Below are positions 1,406-12,988 of a stretch of DNA of 64,000 nt, piece by piece. The stretch comes from Streptomyces uncialis (GTDB lineage: Bacteria; Actinomycetota; Actinomycetes; Streptomycetales; Streptomycetaceae): contig NZ_CP109583.1 in NCBI RefSeq assembly GCF_036250755.1, positions 5,231,501-5,295,500 of the forward strand, written 5' to 3'. The translations under genes were made by a program, and so were the position numbers. The notes beneath the pieces were generated by a model that was given only the letters and a program-made list of their open reading frames with translations, ran no database searches and was not told where the DNA came from. Every line of letters starts with the position of its first letter. Positions within the stretch are counted from its first letter, which is position 1.

Positions 1406-1637
1406 CGCGTTCTTCCTCTCCTTGAGCTGCTCGGAGCCTCAGGGCTGCGAGCGCTGCTGCGGCTGATCCTCACATCCGCGGCGTCCGGGGAGCCGGACAC
1501 CACGCGCGTCATCGCCGCCGCGAATCCGGTGCCCCGGCGATGAGGCCGTCCGGGGCCACGGACCGGGCGGTGCGGTCCCGGCCCGGGGGCCGGGGTCCCG
1601 GGGGCGGCCGGGGTTCCGCGGTGATGACGCTTTGATG

Positions 1638-1658
1638 TCAGATCATGCCGGACTGTCG
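1638..1658. repeat. attL, 21-bp direct repeat
   Basis: A perfect copy of the 21-bp sequence at 11589-11609 (it contains GATCATGCCGGACTG). This copy lies outside any gene, whereas the other one overlaps the nhaA stop codon. The identity stops on both sides (G/C mismatch before, G/C mismatch after), as expected for a tyrosine-recombinase core. Confidence 0.9.
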
Positions 1659-1808
1659 GGGCTTCTGCCCGACCTGGGGGTAGGTCATGTCACCTGCTTC
1701 TGAGCTGCGGCCAAGGTGTCGTCATTGGTCGTTGTCGACCGTTGCTGGTCGTGCTCGGACGGCCCACAGGCGGCCCGGACCCGCGCCGGTCCTGGTGGCG
1801 ACTTCGCA

Positions 1809-1966
1809 GGTAGAGGGGCCCCCTCTACCTGTCCCCGGATCACACCCGTGCAAGCGCCCCCTCTACCTGCCCTCTACCCGACCTCTCGAAGTAGAGGGGC
1901 CCCTCTACCCCGGTAGAGGGGGTGGTAGTGGGGTCTGACCTGCGAGGTAGGGGGGGTAGAGGGGGT
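1809..1966. repeat. repeat array A, unit GTAGAGGGG / CCCCTCTAC
   Basis: At least six copies of GTAGAGGGG or its complement lie in 160 bases. They include a perfect 18-bp palindrome at 1891-1908 and a near-perfect one at 1809-1829. The word CTGACCTGCG sits at 1935-1944 inside the array. No convincing gene is present; open frames here merely follow the base composition. Confidence 0.85.
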
Positions 1967-2006
1967 CCGGGTGTTGTCGTCCCAGGGGCGTGGTGGGGGT
2001 TGTTTG

Positions 2007-2131
2007 GGGGAGGTAGGCGGGCAGGGAGGTGCCAGGGAGGCAGGGAGTTCTCCCTGTCCGCCTCCCTCTCGTGCCTCCCCACGCTGACCTGCGTCTACCG
2101 CCGGTTAGGGAGGCCAGGGAGGCAGGGAGGC
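2007..2131. repeat. repeat array B, unit AGGGAGGC / GCCTCCCT
   Basis: AGGGAGG(C/T) recurs about six times, with spacings of 8-9 bases where adjacent, plus inverted copies and a CAGGGA-GTTC-TCCCTG palindrome at 2041-2056. CTGACCTGCG occurs at 2084-2093, between the inverted and direct blocks. Confidence 0.85.
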
Positions 2132-2235
2132 GGGTCCGTGAAGGGGCCCGAAGCGGCGTTCAGGGGGCACTTTCGGGGGTGGTGGCCTGCCTCCCTCCGT
2201 GGGGGAGGTGTCCGTGGGAGGTCGTGGTGGCGGTT

Positions 2236-2413
2236 GCCGGAACCGGGGTCCGGAACCGTCGGAACCAGTACCGGAACCGACGTTGACCCCGTGCTTCCGT
2301 GGGTTGGGGGCGGGTGGACTTCGGGGCGGAACCGGGGGGCGGAACCGGCGGAACCGAGCGTGGTTCCGGTGGTTCCGGACCCCGGTTCCGCTGGTTCCGG
2401 TGCTGCGGTTCCG
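2236..2413. repeat. repeat array C, unit CGGAACCG / CGGTTCCG
   Basis: Seven GGAACC copies (2239-2355) are followed by five GGTTCC copies (2362-2412), so the direct and inverted blocks face one another. The unit differs from the neighbouring arrays. No CTGACCTG word was seen within this one. Confidence 0.85.
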
Positions 2414-2421
2414 GGCCCTGG

Positions 2422-2533
2422 CTTGTCGCTTGTCGCTTGTCGCCCGACAGGCGACAAGCGGGGGGAGGGCCTGGTGCGTGGGGTGGTCTGACCTGGTGGG
2501 TGACAAGCGACAAGACAAGCGACAAGCGACAAG
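2422..2533. repeat. repeat array D, unit TTGTCGC / GCGACAA
   Basis: Three tandem TTGTCGC heptads at 2423-2443 are followed by CGACAAGCG and then by a second block of GACAAGC heptads at 2502-2533 in the opposite orientation. CTGACCTG lies at 2488-2495, immediately before the second block. Confidence 0.85.
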
Positions 2534-2691
2534 CCGCTTTTACCCGGGGCCGGTGGGGCGGTGGGCCTCCCGCCGGCCGAGTGCCGTGCGGCCATCGAGC
2601 GGGGCCGGTAAAAGCCGTGTCCCGGGTCATCATCGGCCGCGGCCGCGGCCGCGGCTGCGGCTTCGCCTGTCGCCGGTCCGGACGGGCTGGC

Positions 2692-2833
2692 CCTGTCACC
2701 TGTCATCCGCCTGTCACCTGTCACGCTCGGGGTGTCGTGGGCCTGTTCTGGCGCTGGAACATGCCTCTGACCTGGGGGTGACAGGTGACAGACAGGTGAC
2801 AGGTGACAGGTGGATGACAGGCGGGGTGACAGG
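2692..2833. repeat. repeat array F, unit CTGTCAC / GTGACAG
   Basis: CCTGTCA heptads at 2692-2723 face GTGACAG heptads at 2778-2832. CTGACCTG at 2767-2774 directly abuts the second block, the same geometry as in array D but with a different unit. Confidence 0.85.
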
Positions 2834-2895
2834 TCGTCGCGCCCCCGCTCCGGACCCGGATTGCCGCCTGCCCGGTGCGGTCGTGGTGGCTGATC

Positions 2896-3140
2896 TAGTG
2901 GGGCGTACTGGGTAGTGGGTAGTGGGGTCCCCACTGGGGGATGCCTGTTCAGGGGCCCTGTACGCCCCCCTAGGGCCGCTACTGGGTACTGGGGCGCTCC
3001 CCGTTCCCCAGTAGCTCCACGCGTTCTACTGGTTACTGGTTAGTGGAAACCTTTCCACTAACCAGTAGAACGGGGCTCAGGGGCTGCACGGAGCCTGTGA
3101 ACAGGCCGTTTTCCAGTAGCCAGTAGCCAGTAGCCAGTAG
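2896..3140. repeat. repeat array G, unit CCAGTAG / CTACTGG
   Basis: Many CTACTGG or GTAGTGG variants lead into a long hairpin at about 3024-3070 and then into four perfect tandem CCAGTAG heptads at 3113-3140. A GGGGTCCCC palindrome lies at 2926-2934. This is one of the most regular arrays in the region. Confidence 0.85.
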
Positions 3141-3149
3141 CGGGGGCGG

Positions 3150-3200
3150 ACAGGCAAGAGGAGCACCCGGTGCCCCGCCCGGGGGTGCTCCTCTTGTCTG
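3150..3200. repeat. hairpin with CAAGAGGAGCACCC stem, copy 1
   Basis: An inverted repeat whose arms contain CAAGAGGAGCACCC and GGGTGCTCCTCTTG. The same stem sequence returns at 4180-4228 with a different loop. It could act as a terminator or as a structured recognition site; no gene adjoins it to favour termination. Confidence 0.7.
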
Positions 3201-3213
3201 TTCTGTTCGGGGC

Positions 3214-3345
3214 CTGACACCTGTCTGACGTCTGACACCGTCACGTCCCCGTGACACCGGAACCTCTAGGCGGGAGCGGGTGTCAGGGTGTCTGACACCC
3301 CGCCCTGACAGTCGTGTGACGCCTGGCCTGGCCGTGCCTGACACA
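3214..3345. repeat. repeat array I, unit CTGACAC / GTGTCAG
   Basis: About eight copies of TGACAC, TCTGAC or their complements in 130 bases, in both orientations, with a GGGTGTC palindromic core near 3289-3301. The unit is distinct from the GTGACAG array further left. Confidence 0.75.
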
Positions 3346-3444
3346 GACGTGTGGGGACGCCTTCGGCGACGCCCTTCGGCTCGCCCACGTTGGCTCGCCC
3401 ACAGGCTGTGGAGCGGCCTGCGGACTGTCCGGGGTGATGGTGAT

Positions 3445-3501
3445 GCTCTTCAAGAGGGGGCGACGGCATGAGCACGCGTCGGCGCCCCCTCTCTGAAGAG
3501 C
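3445..3501. repeat. inverted repeat with GCTCTTCAAGAGGGGGCG arm
   Basis: The left arm (3445-3462) and right arm (3483-3501) are nearly complementary and could form an 18-bp imperfect stem with a loop of about 20 bases. It immediately precedes the long 181-bp inverted repeat arm. Confidence 0.65.
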
Positions 3502-3523
3502 GTCTTCAACCACGTGCCAGGGA

Positions 3524-3704
3524 TGTGGGGATCGGCCTTCGGCCGTGCGTTCCTTGGCAGCGAGCTGCGCTCGCGCGCGGTCCGGCCGGAGGGCCCTCCC
3601 CTGCTCGGCGCTCTGCCGGGAGCAGCACCCCGAGGACGGCATTCCAGGGGGCGGGGCCGCTCGGGGCACCGCCCACCTCCCCCCTTGGAAGGCCAGACCG
3701 TGGC
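3524..3704. repeat. 181-bp long inverted repeat, left arm
   Basis: This arm matches the reverse complement of 4569-4749 over 181 bases with two mismatches. The two arms enclose 864 bases that contain repeat arrays and nested hairpins. Neither arm resembles a known insertion-sequence end, and there is no transposase between them. Confidence 0.88.
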
Positions 3705-3756
3705 CCCCGTTTCCTAAGAGGTGGTGGAGCGGTTCCGCTTCGCTGACTTCTTTCTC

Positions 3757-3971
3757 TTACTAGAGAGTTAGAGGGAGACAGTGTCCGCAGCGTCCGCAAG
3801 AAGATCGATATGCCGTCTGACCTGCGGTGATGATGCGGACGCTAAGAGAATTGCCTAGCGTCCGCCAGTGTCCGCAGCGTCCGGGCACTCTCAGTTACGT
3901 GCCGGTGTTTCCGCAGGTCAGGACGGCTCTTAGGGAGCGGCGGTGCGGACGCTGCGGACGCTGTCTCTCGT
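3757..3971. repeat. repeat array L, unit GCGTCCGC / GCGGACGC with paired anchor words
   Basis: GCGTCCGC or GCGGACGC occurs about seven times. A perfect 10-bp stem with an 11-base loop lies at 3835-3865. CTGACCTGCG at 3817-3826 is mirrored by its complement at 3912-3921. The 10-mer CTAGAGAGTT at the left edge is found in reverse complement at about 9693-9702, next to the same GCGTCC unit and another CTGACCTGCG. So this module and 9575-9707 are inverted relatives. Confidence 0.82.
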
Positions 3972-4041
3972 CCCGGGGGCATCGGAACCGGGGGTGCCGC
4001 ATTTCGCTTTCGGTGTTCCAGCCGCCTGTGGGGAGCTCTGC

Positions 4042-4298
4042 GACAGGCGAAGAGGCCACCCCCGCCGGACCAGGCGAGGTGGCCTCTTCGCCTGTCTGCG
4101 AGGGAAAGAGCCACGTGGGAGGGGGGATGCCGGGTCGGAGGTCGAACGCACGCCTGAAGGGGCGCATGGCCGGGGCCGCACAAGCAAGAGGAGCACCCCG
4201 GGCGGCGTGGGGTGCTCCTCTTGCTTGTCGCCACCCCAAGGCCCTCCCTCGCGCTTGTGAGGACACCGGCCACTGCATCCCCCCTCCCACGTGGCTCT
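4042..4298. repeat. set of long perfect hairpins
   Basis: Three strong inverted repeats are packed together. A 19-bp stem pairs 4042-4060 with 4078-4096. A 24-bp perfect outer repeat pairs 4107-4130 with 4275-4298. Nested within it, a 20-bp perfect stem with a 9-base loop pairs 4180-4199 with 4209-4228 and repeats the 3150-3200 stem. The third would fold inside the second. No gene is evident. Confidence 0.85.
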
Positions 4299-4370
4299 GT
4301 GGCCCTTGCCCCCTGAGTCCGCGAGGGCATCGAGGAGCGCGGTCCGACGCTCCGGATGGTGACGTTTCGT

Positions 4371-4475
4371 GTGGGGAGGCGATTGGGGAGGCGGGGAGTT
4401 CTCCCCTACCGCCTCCCCAACGGCGCCGCCCCAGCCTGACCAGTGCAGACCCCTATTTGGGGAGGCAGTGAGGCA
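4371..4475. repeat. repeat array M, unit GGGGAGGC / GCCTCCCC
   Basis: Three to four GGGGAGGC copies, one complement, and a GGGGAG-TT-CTCCCC palindrome. The anchor word is present in variant form (CTGACCAGTG at 4436-4445). Confidence 0.75.
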
Positions 4476-4568
4476 GCCCGCGACGCCCTCAAAACCCCCA
4501 GCAGAGCCACTGCCCGCCCTTCTCCCTGGCTCCCCTCCCCAGAACGCACAGTGACCGTTATGACGAGC

Positions 4569-4749
4569 GCCACGGTCTGGCCTTCCAAGGGGGGAGGTGG
4601 GCGGTGCCCCGAGCGGCCCCGCCCCCTGGAATGCCGTCCTCGGGGTGCTGCTCCCCGCAGAGCGCCGAGCAGGGGAGGGCCCTCCGGCCGGACCGCGCGC
4701 GAGCGCAGCTCGCTGTCAAGGAACGCACGGCCGAAGGCCGATCCCCACA
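4569..4749. repeat. 181-bp long inverted repeat, right arm
   Basis: Reverse complement of 3524-3704 with two differences. It ends just before the AT-richer DNA that carries the HNH gene. Confidence 0.88.
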
Positions 4750-4783
4750 CTGGTATGCAAATCAGAAGTAGTTGACGCAATCT

Positions 4784-5494
4784 CTAGCGCAATGCAAGCA
4801 CGTCTTTCACCTTCTGCAGGGCCTTAGCGCATTCAATCATTGAGAGGTAATTGGTTTCAGCGTATTCGAATTCCTTTGCCAGCTTGACGACTTCCCTGCT
4901 GTCGGGTCCGAGGATCAGTTGAGCTGATGTTAGAACGGCGGAAATGCGAGGTGCAATTCCTTCGTGATATGCAGCCCTCATGGCAGATGTGTGATTTGTG
5001 TGCAGCTCTGCCCTCTGCCAAAACGACAACTGTGGGTGTCGGGTGTTGGAAGGGTCGAAGGCCTGCCAGTGTGCGCAGAATCCAAGGATTTCTATCCGGG
5101 CTGTCTCGACCTCGACGAGTAGCATTCCAACGTGATCGCTAGTTATTTTGGAGTCACGGGCAGCCATTATCTCTGCGTTCTTTTTCCAGGCGTGTAGTCC
5201 ATCTACTGTGAAGGCGTCTGGTGAGGCGTCGATTATCTTTGAGCAGCTGAGGCAAAGCCAAATTGCGTTTTCCGGAGATTTCCGCTGTTCGGGAGTCATT
5301 GACGCGTCGAAGCGGGGACCTCCCTGACTTGCTGCTCTGATGTGGGCTGCGATTCCCAAATTGAGGAATTTGTCAATATGTACAGGGTCTGGCCTGTTGG
5401 TGAGGAGTCGGCATGTTGGATTGCTGCAACGATTCCCCGCTCGGTTTGCCACGGCTTTTTTGCTGGCAGCGGAAAAATCATCCCTATTGCCCAC
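4784..5494 (-). CDS. HNH-type nuclease domain protein (possible defence gene)
   Basis: This 236-residue protein starts with GTG, preceded by GGAG. An N-terminal zinc-type HNH module shows CSNPTC near residues 23-28, then an AAHIRAAS block, and NAIWLCLSCSKIID, i.e. two Cys pairs and the central His. The C-terminal half is helical and unrecognised. HNH modules of the AAHI...AAS...GPR type occur in many stand-alone bacterial nucleases, some tied to phage defence; cleavage of DNA is the family expectation. The gene and flanks (about 4760-5560) are visibly AT-richer than everything around them, suggesting recent acquisition. It follows the deaminase on the same strand with a 74-base gap. Confidence 0.7.
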   Translation of the reverse strand: MGNRDDFSAASKKAVANRAGNRCSNPTCRLLTNRPDPVHIDKFLNLGIAAHIRAASQGGPRFDASMTPEQRKSPENAIWLCLSCSKIIDASPDAFTVDGLHAWKKNAEIMAARDSKITSDHVGMLLVEVETARIEILGFCAHWQAFDPSNTRHPQLSFWQRAELHTNHTSAMRAAYHEGIAPRISAVLTSAQLILGPDSREVVKLAKEFEYAETNYLSMIECAKALQKVKDVLALR

Positions 5495-5568
5495 TGAATC
5501 CCCACTCCATCTAGAAATAAAGAAAACTGGCGTGGTGGGTCAAATGGGACCCGCCACGCCAGCATCAA

Positions 5569-6072
5569 TCACAACTTGGCTTCGACAGGCTCCGGCAGCT
5601 GATTCACCCAGGCGCCGAGTACTTCGGTGGCCTGACCTCGAAGAGCCTCGCTCTGTACGGAGGTGATGAGGGTCCGGCGCTCAGACGCTTCCGCCAATTC
5701 GCGGTAGAACTGCACGTCCTCGAAGCCGCTGATTGCCACGTCCGTACTCGTCGCTCCGTAGACGAGTCGGGGCAGACGGGCCCAGTAGCAAGCCACGAGG
5801 CACATCGGGCAAGGCTCGCTGCTCGCGTACATGACGCCGTCTTCCATGAGGTGTCGCCCGAGCTTGGAACCGGCCTCCCTCAGTGCCATCACCTCAGCGT
5901 GCGCGGTGGGGTCCCGCAGCTCAACCACACTGCTGGTTCCCTCTCCGGCTACCTGCCCTTGAACTACGACGACAGCCCCGAAAGGAGTGCCGCCTTTATC
6001 GAGTGAGCGCTGCGAGAGTTCAATGGCGCGCTTCAGATGCCGCTCGTCGGCGCTGTTGAGCTGGGGTGCCAT
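5569..6072 (-). CDS. nucleoside/guanine deaminase-like zinc enzyme
   Basis: A 167-residue cytidine-deaminase-fold protein. It shows the zinc and catalytic motif HAE (THAHAE-type context, TAHAEVMAL) near residue 60 and PCPMC near 90, the classical signature of cytosolic purine/pyrimidine deaminases such as GuaD and TadA. Exact substrate is uncertain. A good ribosome site (GGAGGGAG) precedes the ATG. It lies 22 bases downstream of the GntR regulator on the same strand, so the two probably form an operon that may continue into the HNH gene. Confidence 0.85.
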   Translation of the reverse strand: MAPQLNSADERHLKRAIELSQRSLDKGGTPFGAVVVVQGQVAGEGTSSVVELRDPTAHAEVMALREAGSKLGRHLMEDGVMYASSEPCPMCLVACYWARLPRLVYGATSTDVAISGFEDVQFYRELAEASERRTLITSVQSEALRGQATEVLGAWVNQLPEPVEAKL

Positions 6073-6094
6073 GCGTGGAGCTCCCTCCGGTTAT

Positions 6095-6922
6095 TCATGA
6101 CTTGTGGTGCGTCCACGGCTTCAAGGAGGCCACGAAGCGCAGTTCCGTTCGGTCGGCCGGATACTCCGCATCCGAGACCTCAACCACCCGGTCGGACTCG
6201 TCCAGCGAGATCCGACGGCAGATGAGCAATGGGACTCCATCGGGTAGGCCCCATGTCTGAGCCTCCACAGTGGTAGGCATGCGTCCGGTGACTTCGTCTA
6301 CCACCGTCATGATCTCGATGCCCACGGTGGACAACTGGTGCATGGTGCCCCCCGGCCAGGGTTCCTTGCTCGGGTCAAGGAGGTCCGGGTTCCCCTCCAA
6401 CAGCTCGACCGGGATGTACGACGTGCTGTGGGACAGAAGATTCCCAGTGCGCCGATCTGTGGATTCGTAGAGCCTCCTGAGCGCCGCTGAGCCCTCGGGG
6501 GCTCCCAGCGCTTGGGCAAGCTCAGCTTCGATCGTGATGATGTCGTACTCGGTTCTGAAGTCCTGGTCCTGGATGGACATCCCAAGGTTCGTCTCGGCTT
6601 CCCCAACGGCCGCACGTTCCACTTCGGGCTGCGCCGCTAGGTCTTTCTCCGCCTGGTGTCGCTCGGAGGAGCGAACGACTCGCGCCGGGGGGATTCGCAC
6701 CCTTGGGGCCTTGCCGCGGCCGGCGGTGATGAGCCCTTGAGCCTTGAGGAGCGCGACGGCTCCCCGAGCGCTGTTCATCGAGGTGGACCACTGCTGACAC
6801 AGCTCAGCGAGGGTCGGTAGGGAGTCGCCTGGCCGCAGGTCTCCCCGCTCGATCCGCATGCGGATGGCGTCTGCGATCTGCAACTGAATGGGTCGAGGTA
6901 CTTCCGTCGGGCGAGGCTCCAT
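6095..6922 (-). CDS. GntR/HutC-family regulator with UTRA domain (KorSA-like)
   Basis: The 275-residue protein has an N-terminal winged helix (IQLQIADAIRMRIERGDLRPGDSLPTLAEL, split here for length: it spans residues 11-40) followed by a UTRA effector-binding domain from about residue 110. The ATG at 6922 is chosen because the winged helix begins 11 residues in; an upstream extension would run through the operators. In pSAM2-type elements a HutC-type GntR protein (KorSA) represses the divergent activation/replication genes. The divergent arrangement and twin operators here fit that role, but the effector is unknown. Confidence 0.85.
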   Translation of the reverse strand: MEPRPTEVPRPIQLQIADAIRMRIERGDLRPGDSLPTLAELCQQWSTSMNSARGAVALLKAQGLITAGRGKAPRVRIPPARVVRSSERHQAEKDLAAQPEVERAAVGEAETNLGMSIQDQDFRTEYDIITIEAELAQALGAPEGSAALRRLYESTDRRTGNLLSHSTSYIPVELLEGNPDLLDPSKEPWPGGTMHQLSTVGIEIMTVVDEVTGRMPTTVEAQTWGLPDGVPLLICRRISLDESDRVVEVSDAEYPADRTELRFVASLKPWTHHKS

Positions 6923-6938
6923 GTCCCCATGATGCAAC

Positions 6939-7024
6939 TTCGCGGGTTTGTGGGCAAACACTTGCGCCCGACCTTCCGGGTGGCTAATGTCCTGCCTAGT
7001 TCGCGGGTTTGCCCACAAACCTGC
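6939..7024. promoter_or_regulatory. twin operators for the GntR regulator
   Basis: Two palindrome-like sites, GTTTGTGGGCAAAC at 6946-6959 and its exact reverse complement GTTTGCCCACAAAC at 7007-7020, lie in the divergent promoter region. Both follow the same TTCGCGGGTTTG direct repeat (6939-6950 and 7000-7011). Two inverted GTTTG half-sites are typical of dimeric GntR binding. Their position implies autoregulation and control of the rightward operon. Confidence 0.75.
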
Positions 7025-7098
7025 GAGTCCGAACTGGGAGCGGCTCCTACCGCCAAGCAGACAGCCGCTCCCGTGACCCTCGAAGGGGTGTGTCCATC

Positions 7099-7635
7099 AT
7101 GCCTGGAACTGTTGTGGAGCGGCGTGCTGAAGCGGTGACGGTTGAGGTCAGCGTGACTGTTGATCTCGGGAGTCTGACGAGCGCGGAGCGGACGGTGGCG
7201 CTGTACGTCTCGGGCATGCCGAACCAGCGGCGGCGCTGCACTCCTGAGCAGTTGGCCGCGTGGCTTGTGCAGGGTGTCGAGCGGCTGGGGATGAACGAGA
7301 TGCGGCGGTGGGCCCGCTTCTACTCGGGCCACCGGGCGCTGGAGGTCGCCCGTGTGATGCCCTCGGCGGTGCAGGCCCGGCACGAGCAGCGGTTCCCTAA
7401 CGGTCGACGTCTGGAGTGGGCGTCCCAGATGAGCGCCAACTCGTTGTGGCGCTTCGAGATGAGCGCCGAAACGCTGGTCCGCAACCGTCGGGACATCGAG
7501 GTCGACGGGGAGTGCCCGTGCGGGGGTACGGCCACGATCGACTTCCCCGACTGCGACCCCGACTTTTCGTTCGGCCTGGTGTGCCCCGTTCACGGGGCGG
7601 CCACGATCGCCGCACACCAGGGGCGGATCTACTGA
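7099..7635 (+). CDS. unknown element protein with C-terminal Zn-ribbon-like motif
   Basis: A 178-residue protein starting at ATG 7099, with GAAGGGG upstream. A longer frame begins inside the operator and is not favoured. It ends in CPCGG...C...CPVHG, a likely zinc-binding cluster, after a helical middle. The first gene of the rightward operon occupies the place of the pra activator in pSAM2-like elements, but I see no sequence basis for naming it Pra. Its stop overlaps the next start (TGATG). Confidence 0.65.
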   Translation: MPGTVVERRAEAVTVEVSVTVDLGSLTSAERTVALYVSGMPNQRRRCTPEQLAAWLVQGVERLGMNEMRRWARFYSGHRALEVARVMPSAVQARHEQRFPNGRRLEWASQMSANSLWRFEMSAETLVRNRRDIEVDGECPCGGTATIDFPDCDPDFSFGLVCPVHGAATIAAHQGRIY

Positions 7636-7760
7636 TGGCCCGATCGGCAACCCGACCCGGTGTCCCGGAGGGGGAACGGTCTATGGCTGACCTGCGCATT
7701 CGCCCCCTCCGACCGGGCGCCCGGACGGCTCCCCACGTGCGCGGAATCGAGGCGGCATGA
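7635..7760 (+). CDS. 41-residue small protein, coupled at both ends
   Basis: This short reading frame begins at the ATG of a TGATG overlap with the preceding gene and ends in an ATGA overlap with the following ATPase gene. Such double coupling is strong evidence for translation. The product is basic and Arg/Pro-rich with no recognisable domain. The codons at 7687-7696 contain the exact CTGACCTGCG word found beside the repeat arrays, so part of its sequence may be constrained at the DNA or RNA level. Confidence 0.55.
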   Translation: MARSATRPGVPEGERSMADLRIRPLRPGARTAPHVRGIEAA

Positions 7761-9514
7761 ACACCACCCCCAAGCCCCTGAACGCCGTGAACGGCACCGT
7801 GAACACCGGCCCGATCGCCGTGAACGATCGACCCGCCCCCGTGAACGATCGACCTGCCCCCGTGAACGGATCGACCCCGACCGCGAACACCCGAAGCGAG
7901 CCCGTGAACGCCGTGGACGGGCCCCTGAACATCGAGAGCGGGCCCGTGAACAGTCGGTCGGCCGGTGCCGGTCGGGGGTCGGGTCCGGTCGAGGAGTCGG
8001 GCAAGAAGCCGCCCGCCGCCGCGCGGATCGTGGCCATGGCACGCGGGGAGTACCGGTTTGTCATGTCGCCGGACGGGCGTCCGTACGCGGTGGCGGTGGA
8101 CGGGCCGAACATCGCCCTGCCGCTGCGGAACAAGGGCGGACTGCGTCAGCGGCTGGCCCGGAGGTTCGCGGACGCCTACCCCGGCGAGGTGGCCTCACAA
8201 TCCGCCCTGGCCGATGCGATGACGGTGCTGGAGGGCATCGCGGAGGACAGCGACCCCGTACCCGTTCACCTGCGGGTGGGGAGCGTGCCCGGGGGTGGGA
8301 TCGCGGTGGACCTGGGCACCGTCGACGGCCGTGCGGTCGTCGTCACCGCCACCGGATGGAACGTGGTCGACCGGGCCCCGGTGCTGTTCCGCCGCTCCGG
8401 GGCGATGGCCCCGATGCCGGAACCGGTGCTCGACGGCGACGGCCTGGCCAGGCTCCATGCCCTGTTGAACATGGACGGGTCGGCGTTCCGCCAGCTTGTC
8501 GCCTGGCTGGTCGCCGCGTGGATTCCCGACATCCCCCACCCGGCCCTGGTGTGCAAGGGCGAGCAGGGCACCGGCAAGTCCAAGGCGGCCCAGATGTTCA
8601 TCAACCTCATCGACCCGTCACCGGCCGCCAAGCGCAGCCAGCCACGGGACGAGAAAGCGTGGTCACGGCAGGCGTTCAGCTCATGGGCGCTGTGCCTGGA
8701 CAACGTGAGCGTCATCCCGCCGTGGCTGTCGGACACCCTGTGCAAGGCGGTGACCGGTGACGGGGTCGTAGACCGGGCCCTGTACACCGACGACGACGTG
8801 GTGGTCCTCACCTTCAAACGGGTACTGGCCCTCACCACGATCGACGCGGGAGCTCTGGCCGGGGACCTGGCCGAACGCGTCCTCATGCTCGACCTGCAAC
8901 TCATCGACTCCTCCGAGCGGCGCTCGGAGGAGGAACTGGACGCCACGTTCGAGGCCGACCGCCCGGCGGTCCTCGGGGCCCTGTTCGATGTGCTCGCCTG
9001 TGTGCTGGCGGTCCTGCCCTCGGTGCGGCTGGACTCGATGCCCCGCATGGCGGACTTCGCCCGCGTCCTCGCCGCGGTCGACCAGACCCAGGGCTGGCAC
9101 ACCCTGGACGATTACCTCGCCACCTCCGCGAACGTCGCCACCGACGCGATGGAGGGCGACCCGTTCGCCATGGCCATCGCCCGCCTGGTCGACCAGGCAG
9201 GCACCTGGCAGGGCACAGCGGCCCAGTTGCTCGACATCCTGCCCGCGCCGCTCATCCGGCCCCCGAACTGGCCCAAGGACGCCACCCGCGCCAGCGGACG
9301 CGTCAAGCGGCTGGCCCCGCTCCTGCGGTCCATCGGGATCACCGTGGACGACACGCAGCGTAGCCGCGACCGCCACCGTCACCGGCTCATCACCCTCGCC
9401 CGCACCCCCGACGACGACCCCTCGGCGTCCACAGCGTCCGCACCCGAACAGGGCCCGCTCTGGCCCGGCGTCGCCCCCCTCGGACAGGGCAGCACCCCGC
9501 CTGACCAGCCCTGA
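7757..9514 (+). CDS. SF3/D5-like replication ATPase
   Basis: A 585-residue protein. After an Asn/Val/Pro-rich repetitive N-terminus (residues 1-75) comes an AAA+ core with Walker A GEQGTGKS near 269-276, a Walker-B-like WALCLDNVS near 312-320, and an Arg-rich sensor region (LAERVLML). This resembles the primase-associated helicases of plasmids and phages and of actinobacterial integrative elements, so it probably drives replication of the excised element. It overlaps the small gene by ATGA and lies directly upstream of xis-int. The last 40 residues are Pro/Ser-rich, over DNA holding GCGTCC repeats. Confidence 0.72.
   Translation: MNTTPKPLNAVNGTVNTGPIAVNDRPAPVNDRPAPVNGSTPTANTRSEPVNAVDGPLNIESGPVNSRSAGAGRGSGPVEESGKKPPAAARIVAMARGEYRFVMSPDGRPYAVAVDGPNIALPLRNKGGLRQRLARRFADAYPGEVASQSALADAMTVLEGIAEDSDPVPVHLRVGSVPGGGIAVDLGTVDGRAVVVTATGWNVVDRAPVLFRRSGAMAPMPEPVLDGDGLARLHALLNMDGSAFRQLVAWLVAAWIPDIPHPALVCKGEQGTGKSKAAQMFINLIDPSPAAKRSQPRDEKAWSRQAFSSWALCLDNVSVIPPWLSDTLCKAVTGDGVVDRALYTDDDVVVLTFKRVLALTTIDAGALAGDLAERVLMLDLQLIDSSERRSEEELDATFEADRPAVLGALFDVLACVLAVLPSVRLDSMPRMADFARVLAAVDQTQGWHTLDDYLATSANVATDAMEGDPFAMAIARLVDQAGTWQGTAAQLLDILPAPLIRPPNWPKDATRASGRVKRLAPLLRSIGITVDDTQRSRDRHRHRLITLARTPDDDPSASTASAPEQGPLWPGVAPLGQGSTPPDQP
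7778..7951 (+). repeat. in-frame GTGAAC repeats with 21-base periodicity
   Basis: GTGAAC occurs at 7787, 7799, 7820, 7841, 7862, 7904 and 7946. The intervals are 12, 21, 21, 21, 42 and 42 bases, so most copies keep a seven-codon register and encode Val-Asn pairs. The array lies within the 5' end of the ATPase gene. Confidence 0.8.
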
Positions 9515-9574
9515 CACGGCCCGGCAACCCGGTGTCCGGGCCGCACGCCAGCGGCCCGGACACCCCGGAACCTG

Positions 9575-9707
9575 TGGACGCTGAAGCCGTCCCGCACCCA
9601 CAGCGTCCACACCAGCGTCCACCCCTAACGCCCTGCCTGACCTGCGTAAACGCGGCCGTGCGGACGCTGGAGCGCTGCGGACGCTGCGATGCACCAACTC
9701 TCTAGGA
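9575..9707. repeat. repeat array between ATPase gene and xis, unit GCGTCCAC / GTGGACGC
   Basis: Five copies of (A/T)GCGTCC(A/G)C or its complement flank CTGACCTGCG at 9637-9646, and AACTCTCTAG ends the module. Array L at 3757-3971 carries the same unit, the same anchor and the complement of AACTCTCTAG, in the opposite orientation. A further two unit copies lie inside the end of the ATPase gene (about 9425-9443). Confidence 0.8.
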
Positions 9708-9764
9708 CGGCACCCCGGACCGACCCCCCGCACCGCACCACGGACACGAGGAGTCACCACCACC

Positions 9765-10016
9765 ATGACCACACCAAAGCGCCGGCCGGACCCCCGCGAC
9801 ACCCTGCGCGCCGGACTCCCCGACCGCTACCTGACCCCCGACGACCTCGTCACCATGTTCAGCCTCCCGAGCGTCGAAACGGTCTACGCCTGGCGCCGCA
9901 AGGGCATCGGCCCGCCCGGCTTCCGCGTCGGCAAGTACATCCGCTTCAACCCCGCCGCCGTAGCGGCGTGGGAGGCAGCACAGACCACCGACCCCGCTGC
10001 CCGGCTCGTGGCCTGA
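9765..10016 (+). CDS. helix-turn-helix protein, putative excisionase
   Basis: An 83-residue protein with a MerR/Xis-type winged helix: YLTPDDLVTMFSLPSVETVY, then WRRKGIGPPGFRVGKYIRF and a C-terminal WEAA. Proteins of this size and motif directly upstream of an element integrase are the usual excision directionality factors. AGGAG precedes the ATG. Separated from int by a GTGACGC repeat array. Confidence 0.8.
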   Translation: MTTPKRRPDPRDTLRAGLPDRYLTPDDLVTMFSLPSVETVYAWRRKGIGPPGFRVGKYIRFNPAAVAAWEAAQTTDPAARLVA

Positions 10017-10019
10017 CGC

Positions 10020-10147
10020 ACTGACCAGCGTGACCCGGGTGCGTCACGGCGTCACACCCCGACCGTGACGCCGTGACGCACCCCGCCACACCCTCGCCCG
10101 CACTGCCGCCCACCAGGGCGCTGACCAGCGTGACCCGGTGCGTCACA
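10020..10147. repeat. repeat array between xis and int, unit GTGACGC / GCGTCAC
   Basis: Two near-identical blocks, at 10021-10047 and 10121-10146, contain CTGACCAGCG followed by GTGACCCGG and GCGTCAC. Further GTGACGC copies lie between them. The leading word is a one-base variant of the CTGACCTGCG anchor. A CACGGACACCCG run follows at about 10199-10230. Confidence 0.75.
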
Positions 10148-10263
10148 CCCCCACCCGCACACCCAGCCGCACGCAGCCCGCACGGCATCCGCACACCCCG
10201 CACGGACACCCGCACGGACACCCGCACGGCGTGTCCGCCCCAACCCGAAGGGACACAGCCCAC

Positions 10264-11529
10264 ATGGCTGGCCACATCCAGGACCGCTGGTACAAGACCA
10301 CCACCGGCCCCGACCACAAGCCCGTCAAGGAACGCAGTGACCGCTACGGCACCGGCCTCCGCTACCGCGCCCGCTACATCGGCCCCGACGGCACCGAGAA
10401 GTCCAAGAGCTTCCGCGACGGACAGAAGCGACTTGCTGAGAAGTGGCTGAGCAAGACCGAGACGGACATGGCCACGGGCCAGTACGTCGACCCCCGTTCG
10501 GCGCGGACCACGTTCCAGGAGCACGCCGTGAAGTGGGTTGCCGCACAGACCTCCGACATCGCGACGCGGCAGGCTGTCGAGATGCGGCTCAGGCTGCACG
10601 CCTACCCGCACATCGGTAGTCGTCCGCTCGGTTCCTTCAGGCCGGAGCACATCCGGGCGTGGGTGCGTGTCCTGGAGGACACTGTCCCTGCGGCTTCCTA
10701 CCGCCGTGCCATCTTCGGCAACGTCTCGGCTGTGCTCACGGCCGCTGTGGACGATGGCCTCTTGCTCAAGAACCCCTGCCGCGCCGAGTCCGTGAAGGCA
10801 CCCAAGCCCTCCCCGACCCGTGTGAAGCCGTGGCCCGCCGAGTGGGTGTTCGGGGTGCGCGAGGCGTTGCCCGGCCGGTACCGGGCCGGTGTCGACCTGG
10901 GCGGAGGCTGTGGGCTGAGGCAGGGCGAGGTCTTCGGGCTTCCCGTCGATGAGGTCGACTTCCTGGGGGGCTGGCTGCACGTCGCCTACCAAATCAAGCT
11001 GGTCCGGGGGAAGCCCGTGTTCGCTCCGCCCAAGGGCGGGAAGGAGCGTGACGTTCCTTTCCCCAGTGAGGTGGGCGCCGCCCTGGCCGCGCACATGACC
11101 GTGTACCCGCCGGTGGCGATCACGCTTCCGTGGTGCGAGCCGGACGGGGCGCCGGTGACCAAGAAGCTGTTCTTCACCAACAGCGACGGGCACGCCGTAC
11201 GGCGGAACGCGTTCAACCTCCGGGCGTGGAAACCCGCTCTGGCCGCTGTGGGGGTCATTCCGGTGCCGGAGCGGGGGGAGAGGCACGCGAAGGCCCCCGA
11301 GCACGGCATGCACGCGCTGAGGCACTTCTACGCGTCGGTCCTGCTCGATGCCGGGGAGAACATCAAGGCGTTGAGCCAGTACCTCGGGCACAGCGACCCC
11401 GGATTCACCCTCCGGACCTATACGCACCTCATGCCGAGCAGCGAGGGGCGCACCCGCAAGGCGGTGAATCAGGTCTACGGGGAGCACGGTTCCCGTGATC
11501 ACGGCCCAGGGACGGCCCAGGCGGCATGA
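10264..11529 (+). CDS. tyrosine site-specific integrase of element 1
   Basis: A 421-residue tyrosine recombinase. It has an N-terminal SAM-like core-binding region, then CGLRQGEVFGL (catalytic Arg), HALRHFYAS near 349-357, LGHSDPGFTLRTYTHL with the His and nucleophilic Tyr near 385. The ATG at 10264 is preceded by GAAGGGA; the in-frame upstream extension is His/Pro-rich repeat translation and is rejected. It lies 60 bases from attR, and an intrinsic-type hairpin follows. It is predicted to recombine the nhaA 3' site with the element core. Confidence 0.92.
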   Translation: MAGHIQDRWYKTTTGPDHKPVKERSDRYGTGLRYRARYIGPDGTEKSKSFRDGQKRLAEKWLSKTETDMATGQYVDPRSARTTFQEHAVKWVAAQTSDIATRQAVEMRLRLHAYPHIGSRPLGSFRPEHIRAWVRVLEDTVPAASYRRAIFGNVSAVLTAAVDDGLLLKNPCRAESVKAPKPSPTRVKPWPAEWVFGVREALPGRYRAGVDLGGGCGLRQGEVFGLPVDEVDFLGGWLHVAYQIKLVRGKPVFAPPKGGKERDVPFPSEVGAALAAHMTVYPPVAITLPWCEPDGAPVTKKLFFTNSDGHAVRRNAFNLRAWKPALAAVGVIPVPERGERHAKAPEHGMHALRHFYASVLLDAGENIKALSQYLGHSDPGFTLRTYTHLMPSSEGRTRKAVNQVYGEHGSRDHGPGTAQAA

Positions 11530-11530
11530 A

Positions 11531-11571
11531 CAGGCCCCCTACCGGCAAGAAACACGCTGGTAGGGGGCCTG
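11531..11571 (+). terminator. hairpin terminator after int
   Basis: CAGGCCCCCTACC pairs with GGTAGGGGGCCTG around an A-rich loop right after the integrase stop. It would stop rightward transcription from running antisense into nhaA. Confidence 0.8.
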
Positions 11572-11588
11572 TTCGGCCCGTATTGGGC

Positions 11589-11609
11589 TCAGATCATGCC
11601 GGACTGTCG
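11589..11609. repeat. attR, 21-bp direct repeat overlapping the nhaA stop
   Basis: Identical to 1638-1658. On the minus strand it encodes the last four codons of nhaA (Asp-Ser-Pro-Ala) and its TGA, so insertion leaves nhaA intact. Confidence 0.9.
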
Positions 11610-12988
11610 CTCCCGTCGCCTGCCCCGGCCGTCACTTTCGCAAGCCTGCGGTGTTCCTCGGCCTTGCGGTCGTGGATCGCGGCCATCCGGAGGTGGTACT
11701 CCGGGTTGTCCTGCTCGTAGACGTCGGGGATGCCGTCCAGGTCGTCGTCGCGATTCTCGTCGTCCCAGAGGGTGCGGTACCGGTTGTTGCGGACCTTCAG
11801 CAGGATGCCCGCGAGGACGGCCGCGATGAGGGAGCCCACCAGTACGGATGCCTTGACCTCGGCGGTCAGCGCGGGGTCGTCGGCGAAGGCGAGTTCCCCG
11901 ATCAGCAGGGAGACGGTGAAGCCGATGCCGGCGAGGGTCGCCACCGCGAACACGTCCGGCCAGGCCAGGTCGTCGCTGAGCGAGGCGCGGGTGAACCGGG
12001 CGGTCAGCCAGGTGCCGCCGAAGATGCCGACCGCCTTGCCGAGCACCAGCCCGAGGACGACACCCAGCGTCTCGGGCCGGGTGAACACCTCGGCGAGCGC
12101 CCCGCCGGACACCGGCACCCCCGCGCTGAACAGCGCGAACAGCGGTACGGCGAGTCCCGCCGAGATGGGCCGTACGAGGTGCTCGATGTGCTCACCGGGG
12201 GAGTGCTTCTCGTCCTCGCGCCGGGAGCAGCGCAGCATCAGGCCCATGGCGACACCGGCGATCGTCGCGTGGACGCCGCTGTTGTACATCAGGCCCCAGA
12301 CGACGAGCGCCAGCGGGACGTACACGTACCAGCCGCGGACCTCCTTGCGCAGCAGGAGCCAGAAGAGGACCAGGCCGACGACCGCGCCGCCGAGGGCCGC
12401 GAAGTTCAGTTCGCTGGTGAAGAAGACCGCGATGATCAGGATGGCGAAGAGGTCGTCGACGACGGCGAGGGTCAGCAGGAACGCGCGCAGCGCGGACGGC
12501 AGCGAGGTGCCGATGACGGCGAGCACGGCGAGTGCGAAGGCGATGTCGGTGGCGGTGGGGACGGCCCAGCCGCTGAGCGAGCCGCCGCCGGCGAGATTGG
12601 TGACGACGTAGACCAGGGCCGGGACGGCCATGCCGCACAGCGCGGCGACCACGGGCAGTACGGCGGCCTTGGGGTCGCGCAGATCGCCTGCCACGAGTTC
12701 GCGTTTCAGCTCGATCCCGGCGACGAAGAAGAAGATCGCGAGGAGCCCGTCGGCGGCCCAGTGCCGGATCGAGAGGTCGAGGCCGAGGGCGGCGGGGCCG
12801 ATATGGAAGTCGCTGACGCTCTGGTAGCTGTCCCGCAGCGGGGTGTTCGCCCAGACCAGCGCGGTGATGGCGGCGATGAGAAGCAGGACACCGCCGACCG
12901 TCTCGGTCCGCAGCGCCTCCGCGACGAAGTTCCGCTCGGGGAGCGACAGTCGTCCGAAGAGCTTGCGGGGGGTGTGCGGCGCGGTCAC
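11594..12988 (-). CDS. nhaA: Na+/H+ antiporter NhaA
   Basis: This 464-residue multi-pass membrane protein matches the NhaA family, exchanging sodium for protons for pH and salt homeostasis. Visible landmarks are AGIELKRELVAGDL, the ATDIAFALAV helix-IV motif with its ion-binding Asp, and LTLAVVDDLFAILIIAVFF with the paired Asp. The hydrophilic tail after about residue 405 is longer than in enterobacterial NhaA. The GTG start at 12988 has GGAGG eight bases upstream. The final codons form the element 1 attachment site. Confidence 0.93.
   Translation of the reverse strand: MTAPHTPRKLFGRLSLPERNFVAEALRTETVGGVLLLIAAITALVWANTPLRDSYQSVSDFHIGPAALGLDLSIRHWAADGLLAIFFFVAGIELKRELVAGDLRDPKAAVLPVVAALCGMAVPALVYVVTNLAGGGSLSGWAVPTATDIAFALAVLAVIGTSLPSALRAFLLTLAVVDDLFAILIIAVFFTSELNFAALGGAVVGLVLFWLLLRKEVRGWYVYVPLALVVWGLMYNSGVHATIAGVAMGLMLRCSRREDEKHSPGEHIEHLVRPISAGLAVPLFALFSAGVPVSGGALAEVFTRPETLGVVLGLVLGKAVGIFGGTWLTARFTRASLSDDLAWPDVFAVATLAGIGFTVSLLIGELAFADDPALTAEVKASVLVGSLIAAVLAGILLKVRNNRYRTLWDDENRDDDLDGIPDVYEQDNPEYHLRMAAIHDRKAEEHRRLAKVTAGAGDGSDSPA

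Follow-up and report, generated by a model that had tools for sequence, protein, structure and literature searches.

We analyzed a 64,000-nucleotide stretch of the Streptomyces uncialis genome (contig NZ_CP109583.1, positions 5,231,501 to 5,295,500; this whole stretch is called the window, and all coordinates refer to it). At 1638-11609 it contains an integrated element of 9,972 bp that begins with a mosaic of short-word repeat arrays, and that is very likely a satellite of TraB-dependent double-stranded DNA conjugation, carrying a library of mimics of clt (cis-acting locus of transfer) sites through which many helpers would mobilise it. The original prediction, made from the letters alone, had guessed that TraB recognition arrays of many elements are gathered here in a non-conjugative element. 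This guess is supported by two results: eight of the ten arrays match, in a TraB-group-specific manner, the DNA immediately 3′ of traB genes, and 47 TraB queries gave no tblastn match (E up to 1e-3) in 15 satellite elements, including that of the window.

The ten arrays, each with its own 7-9 bp word, are packed into 1810-4466. All nine words named in the original prediction were found in the order claimed: GTAGAGGGG at 1810-1964, AGGGAGGC at 2034-2196, CGGAACCG at 2238-2413, TTGTCGC at 2423-2532, GTGACAG at 2693-2832, CCAGTAG at 3026-3140, CTGACAC at 3214-3344, GCGTCC(GC) at 3790-3961 and GGGGAGG(C) at 4373-4466. A tenth word, GTAGTGGG/CCCAGTA/CCCACTA at 2896-3014, had been lumped with CCAGTAG. 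Direct blocks do face inverted blocks in most arrays, and this layout, a short word repeated in both orientations over ~50-200 bp, is that of clt arrays of TraB recognition sequences. The claimed unit period of 7-9 bp holds in part, as regular 7-bp steps in the TTGTCGC, GTGACAG and CCAGTAG arrays and as 8-9 bp steps in part of the AGGGAGGC array, while the remaining arrays are irregular. Using a general array test (a single 7-mer at least five times within 160 bp), we obtained eight arrays in the 2.7 kb of the block and none in first-order Markov resamples of the 64-kb window (n = 3); the remaining 61 kb of the real window gave 13, of which three lie within the same element and most others are single-strand. 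A word-class test (four copies within 130 bp) returned one array in 400 kb of Markov sequence and two in the window's other 51 kb. The block had also been described as gene-free, and the coding signal indeed calls no gene in 1406-5568; mechanical open reading frames do occur there, and a low-GC gene at 4784-5494, missed by the coding-signal caller, was found via protein families. A search of the block against phage records gave no match.

The mosaic block lies within a complete mobile element, of which it forms one end. Among 24 other genomes with a match to nhaA, 11 were fetched (loci L141-L151; L and G numbers designate loci and genomes), and in all 11 the site is empty: nhaA adjoins the holin-like gene that is the left-side neighbour of the element in the window, with an attB-like site (1-6 mismatches). 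The 21-bp repeats at 1638 and 11589, together with the empty site in relatives, therefore delimit a single integrated element. Its att repeats and empty site, its own integrase and excisionase, and the absence of a transfer machine of its own (family scans of its genes found no relaxase or translocase family) are those of an integrative mobilizable element; the TraB/Tra translocase gene that characterizes actinomycete integrative and conjugative elements (AICEs) is missing.

To relate the arrays to TraB, we used a reference set of 84 distinct traB-downstream sequences (93 less 9 that duplicated a place or copy already included). The original prediction had named arrays lacking any TraB or Rep word as a finding contrary to it, and this is not what we observed. 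Some of the matches span 100-160 bp, so the similarity exceeds the word itself. None of four non-array pieces of the block matched this set, nor did the rep-adjacent array or 10005-10150. The CTGACAC array is homologous to a transfer locus of proven function, the clt of pWTY27, whose four TGACACC repeats are footprinted by an FtsK-like Tra protein and needed for transfer, as described in passages of PMC3583192; the other seven TraB-matched arrays are homologous only to traB-adjacent arrays of putative clt function. In 27 loci chosen by Rep homology we scanned the 30 bp preceding and the 270 bp following each stop; a 7-mer occurred at least four times in 20 of 26 TraBs and in 39 of 339 other genes; at five copies, the counts were 16/26 and 13/339, and eight of those 13 were Rep genes. 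TraBs without a clear array in the scanned stretch include L016, L131 and group D, and L126 carries a different word.

The words follow the TraB groups. Group A is found with GACAAGC, CTGTCAC and CCAGTA types, group B, which includes pWTY27 and NCBI's plasmid TraB (L069), with TGACACC and variants such as GTAACAC, group C with AGGGAGGC or GGGGAGGC, and group E with CCCTCTAC, CCCTTTAC and GCTAGC/GCTACC types, three E members having AGGGAGGC. By profile comparison every pair of groups is related (E 1.3e-4 or better). Moreover, the TraB C-terminus covaries with the array word within groups. In group A, the C-terminal helix is TRQTVVGWLK-like with GACAAGC, RRPVIQRWL with CTGTCAC, and DRKTVRAAL or SRQAVRAAL with CCCAGTA/CCCACTA or CCAGTAG. 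Among 26 TraBs with AGGGAGG or GGGGAGG arrays, AGGGAGG prevails with KSD (11/11), KSN (3) and KTG (2), and GGGGAGG with KSH (7/7) and, at ratios of 6:2, 6:1 and 3:2, with KYN (3), which amounts to a D/H residue switch between the two words; L188, L190, L191, L192 and L197 (three D and two H cases) were read once the D/H pattern had already been seen. The window carries both words. This covariation suggests that the arrays would be bound by the C-terminal winged helix of TraB. It is extremely unlikely that they are ordinary regulatory sites of a host protein, for example a chromosome-organising factor: a CTGACCTG core is common to many of them, as such a role might entail, but the word changes from array to array in step with the TraB group, and there is only one clt-class array in the 51 kb of neighbouring chromosome.

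The same organization recurs in relatives. A comparison of the element's Rep-like protein with 295 Streptomyces genomes gave 12 genomes at 71% identity or more, nine at 57-61% and many at ~34-41%. The 12, together with three found from array similarity, make up the 15 satellites, which were read as 10-20 kb stretches; ten were chosen by clustered array matches, four (L100-L103) by Rep homology, and the window is the fifteenth. Element ends were not located in L052, L054, L057, L066 and L103, so their arrays were counted over the whole stretch. TraB is present in 26 of the 27 loci fetched from the ~34-41% group (the Rep-chosen loci above, drawn from among the higher 34-40% matches, with some rows skipped) and in 4/9 of the 57-61% group (L104-L112), which was counted on neither side; the array-chosen, TraB-less loci L053, L058, L060, L152, L156, L162 and L163 also stand outside the 15. 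At four copies in 130 bp, the window's element has nine word classes and the other 14 satellites have 2-5, with an overall median of 4 (L050 has 3 rather than 4, because its classes A3 and A4 coincide in one array). Conversely, the 27 Rep-chosen loci have one class in 20 cases, none in 7 and never a second; the single class is built in, since such loci helped to define the classes, whereas the missing second class is not. An AGCGTCC array 3′ of rep and a second one elsewhere are found in 15/15 satellites.

Two other explanations must be weighed against these patterns. If the arrays were decoys that titrate TraB and so hamper co-resident conjugative elements, protecting the satellite or the host, they would show identical homologies, the joint presence of TraB and Rep words would suit a competitor, and one cargo gene does resemble defence effectors. 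We nevertheless regard this as improbable, because the arrays belong to an integrative element that has att sites, an integrase, an excisionase and a Rep-like gene of its own, and because each class is represented by a single array in 59 of 60 class occurrences among the satellites, while a titration device would be expected to carry the commonest class in several copies. Decoy action and mobilisation are not mutually exclusive and may coexist. That the block is a graveyard, the leftovers of conjugative elements that integrated and decayed at one hotspot, is very improbable. A 187-bp inverted repeat that brackets the last part of the mosaic indicates rearrangement, and a 1.56-Mb linear Streptomyces plasmid has a degenerate relative of the block (L012, 5585-6790) with a clt remnant, a hairpin and a GCGTCC array. 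On the other hand, the 15 loci contain no traB fragment and no match to one SpdB and two DUF2637 queries, the arrays keep many perfect word copies, and the multi-array pattern is common to 15 elements located at several sites, among them those of all 12 of the 295 genomes with Rep at 71% or more.

The TraBs resident in the same genomes lend further support to a satellite equipped with clt mimics for many helpers. A search of the 15 satellite genomes for group A, B, C and E TraBs showed that 12 of the 15 hosts have a resident TraB with a word class carried by the satellite. Matching residents are more frequent than expected by chance: satellites and residents share 23 classes, against a mean of 15.6 when the resident sets were shuffled (p = 0.0012, 10,000 shuffles restricted to the 13 genomes that have a classed word; the copy threshold was 3 for residents and 4 for satellites, and A3 and A4 overlap). 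The window's genome has one conjugative element in two copies (L017 and L018), ~1.5 Mb apart and in opposite orientation, in which a GACAAGC array starts 4 bp past the traB stop; the DUF2637 gene of this element holds a CGGAACC array 78% identical to that of the window. In G351, a TraB with the word CGTCACA fits the CGTCACA array of its satellite, which had earlier seemed an orphan.

Not all arrays can be assigned to TraB. The GCGTCC array of the mosaic is probably an origin, since it carries the word found immediately 3′ of rep in this element family, and judging by its sequence it is probably a second copy of the element's Rep origin; its only match to the traB-downstream set is 22 bp long. 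We consider it very unlikely, though, that the whole block is a library of replication origins in which each array represents the iterons of a different Rep. The GCGTCC array and that at 9577-9686, both with the word found 3′ of this Rep family, would fit this view, as would the TGACGCA repeats at 10014-10147, with the word found 3′ of Rep in conjugative elements, and the CTGACCTG core, which is shared with the pWTY27 iteron region. However, eight arrays match traB-downstream DNA, and in the conjugative set the Rep-adjacent word is nearly constant (TGACGCA/GCGTCAC) whereas the traB-adjacent words vary with the TraB C-terminus. Origins account only for the GCGTCC arrays, and perhaps for 10014-10147 too. 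The core itself lies at 1936, 2085, 2489, 2768, 3818 and 9638 in the window, and it occurs in many clt-like arrays (A1, A2, C, E1/2) as well as in Rep iterons, but not in group B. Counting GACCTG or CAGGTC within 220 bp, with duplicate places removed, we found it in traB-adjacent arrays of classes A1 (8/9), A2 (2/2), C1 (14/14), C2 (8/11), E1/2 (6/6), E3/4 (4/14), B (0/15) and A3/4 (0/4), and in 63/230 control stretches. The core had been considered as proof of replication origins; given the group counts and the controls it is not decisive, and the idea was dropped.

Several observations weigh against reading the element as a clt-mimic satellite. The GCGTCC array resembles an origin rather than a clt, and the presence of the core in both clt-like arrays and Rep iterons means that some traB-adjacent arrays could also serve replication. 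The CGGAACC array has no match among the 84 traB-downstream sequences and none among plasmids; it matches 6 of 295 genomes, and its best match beyond the element is the DUF2637 gene of the resident element. For the TTGTCGC and CCAGTAG arrays the alignment is limited to 45-58 bp. The profile links A-C (54% probability) and B-C (64%) are the weakest, and group A proteins fall below the Pfam FtsK cut-off or are missed, as is the case for the NCBIfam-named TraB of L069. In the Rep-chosen set 6 of 26 TraBs stay below four copies, and the B1 and C2 arrays have median copy numbers of 5 and 6 in satellites against 7 and 8 beside traB. The search for group A, B, C and E TraBs gave no resident match in G158, G310 and G194. 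Lastly, the word classes were drawn up after inspection of the data.

Clts, AICEs and mobilizable elements are already known. As far as the passages of PMC3583192 go, the pWTY27 clt is located at the end of its own tra gene, whereas its homolog in the window is detached from tra and stands among seven other TraB-matched arrays. The element shares with AICEs (PMC3218068, PMC9513070) a tyrosine integrase, a Rep-like gene, a GntR regulator, site-specific integration and small size, but it is devoid of TraB, and a collection of foreign clts is not described in the passages of these two papers that bear on the matter; one of them raises the question whether elements hijack the TraB of other elements (PMC9513070). 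The nearest parallel, from the relevant passages of PMC8136818, is that of staphylococcal non-conjugative plasmids, which carry mimics of the origin of transfer (oriT) of a helper (pWBG749), some having two or three, mostly of different subtypes; there, one residue change switches the specificity of the DNA-binding protein SmpO. Both cases involve copies of a helper's transfer site on non-conjugative elements. The staphylococcal system is single-stranded and relaxase-based, whereas the window has eight TraB-matched arrays in an integrative element, their homologs adjoin FtsK-like genes, and the sites would be those of a double-strand translocase. SGI1 and other integrative mobilizable elements are likewise integrated satellites that pirate helper conjugation (PMC5704250), but they depend on a relaxase, a coupling protein and a type IV secretion system, and the passages of that source do not describe a TraB-dependent case. 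Among the literature matches listed, in which subscription journals were mostly outside the scope, no title concerned multi-clt elements.

Table 1. Features of the integrated element and its repeat arrays (window coordinates; fractions refer to the 84 traB-downstream sequences unless stated otherwise).
Feature	Position	Strand	Basis or comparison
attL, 21-bp direct repeat	1638..1658	+	Exact copies in window only at 1638 and 11589
clt-like array, word CCCTCTAC (GTAGAGGGG), TraB group E	1810..1964	.	7/84 match, all E, 75-86%
clt-like array, word AGGGAGGC, TraB groups C and E, mostly KSD/KSN proteins	2005..2200	.	19/84: 16 C, 3 E
CGGAACC array	2238..2414	.	0/84
clt-like array, word TTGTCGC (GACAAGC), TraB group A	2421..2534	.	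9/84, all A, over 45-58 bp
clt-like array, word CTGTCAC (GTGACAG), TraB group A	2692..2833	.	2/84, 84-88% over ~70 bp
clt-like array, word CCCAGTA/CCCACTA (GTAGTGGG), TraB group A	2890..3016	.	3/84, 72-80% over 108-128 bp
clt-like array, word CCAGTAG, TraB group A	3020..3145	.	2/84, over 45-49 bp only
clt-like array, word CTGACAC/TGACACC, TraB group B (pWTY27 type)	3205..3350	.	12/84, all B, 75-83%
Left arm of 187-bp inverted repeat, 98%	3524..3710	+	Repeat listing
GCGTCC(GC) array with CTGACCTGC and GCAGGTCAG cores	3775..3967	.	rep-downstream word; layout like pWTY27 iteron region
Hairpin between arrays, perfect 19-bp arms	4042..4096	.	Repeat listing
Hairpin between arrays, perfect 20-bp arms	4180..4228	.	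Similar hairpins in related loci
clt-like array, word GGGGAGGC, TraB group C, mostly KSH proteins	4365..4485	.	14/84: 13 C, 1 E
Right arm of 187-bp inverted repeat	4563..4749	-	Repeat listing
236-aa protein, cargo; N-terminal half like CBASS/SAVED-type endonuclease effectors	4784..5494	-	Protein-family comparison
Deaminase (dCMP_cyt_deam_1), cargo	5569..6072	-	Family scan
GntR-UTRA regulator	6095..7018	-	Family scan
208-aa protein without family	7009..7635	+	Family scans
Rep-like ATPase, 585 aa, Walker A GEQGTGKS in consensus	7757..9514	+	Replication role inferred
AGCGTCC array immediately 3′ of rep, probable Rep iterons	9577..9686	.	Word common to 15/15 elements
Excisionase (HTH_17)	9765..10016	+	PF12728, phrog_66
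TGACGCA/GCGTCAC repeats, word found 3′ of Rep in conjugative elements	10014..10147	.	0/84
Tyrosine integrase	10264..11529	+	PF00589, phrog_1; start by coding signal, frame open from 10138
attR, 21-bp direct repeat, covering nhaA 3′ end	11589..11609	+	Exact-copy search and relatives

Regarding the genes of the element (Table 1), the Rep-like ATPase has no match in Pfam, NCBIfam or PHROG and none among PDB sequences, and its homologs are named ATP-binding protein; we call it Rep because homologs follow Prim-Pol genes (L060, L104) and precede iteron-like arrays. Relatives of the excisionase (59-85%) are present in 14/14 other satellite elements. The 236-aa cargo protein showed no Pfam domain, and no relatives of it were found in the genome contigs searched. 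Arrays of CGTGAAC-like words also occur inside coding sequence, at the start of the window's rep (7786-7951), where they encode in-frame VN repeats, and within DUF2637 genes of conjugative plasmids (L014, L016, L069). The non-array stretch 3351-3466 is 83-87% conserved in several Streptomyces genomes, for example G256, G370, G140 and G364. Beyond the 15 satellites, L058 has at 9201-12287 a mosaic of eight arrays that includes mirrored CCGCTAC/CCGCCAC pairs and adjoins a serine recombinase; no TraB was found at this locus, which perhaps represents a second satellite lineage. Clt-like or Rep-like arrays, again with no TraB found, were seen in L053 (with a phage-capsid gene), L152, L156, L162 (with a D5-type helicase), L104 (with Prim-Pol) and L105. 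The plasmid records L015, L016 and L069 have the same gene set twice, perhaps as dimers or assembly duplications.

We propose that the element would integrate and excise by its own integrase and excisionase and would probably replicate by its own Rep. Having no DNA translocase, it would rely on eight (possibly nine) clt mimics, each composed of a word that a different TraB C-terminal domain would recognise. A conjugative element in the same mycelium whose TraB reads one of these words would act as helper: its TraB would load onto the array concerned and drive the excised circle into the recipient cell. With one array per TraB specificity, the element would be independent of any single helper.

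More broadly, we think it probable, although less so than the satellite nature of the element, that TraB satellites form a widespread class, each maintaining a non-redundant key ring of clt mimics with roughly one mimic for every helper specificity, acquired from co-resident helpers together with the helpers' Rep words, and that the arrays and the TraB C-terminus form a readable recognition code, in which D or N at one position would read AGGGAGG and H would read GGGGAGG. If true, this code would predict which conjugative element mobilises which satellite across the genus. The arrays immediately 3′ of traB would provide candidate clts for many AICE-type TraBs, together with candidate specificity residues. 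The satellites may thus represent a natural set of elements that collect clt-like sites, and mobilisation networks in Streptomyces would become predictable and testable.

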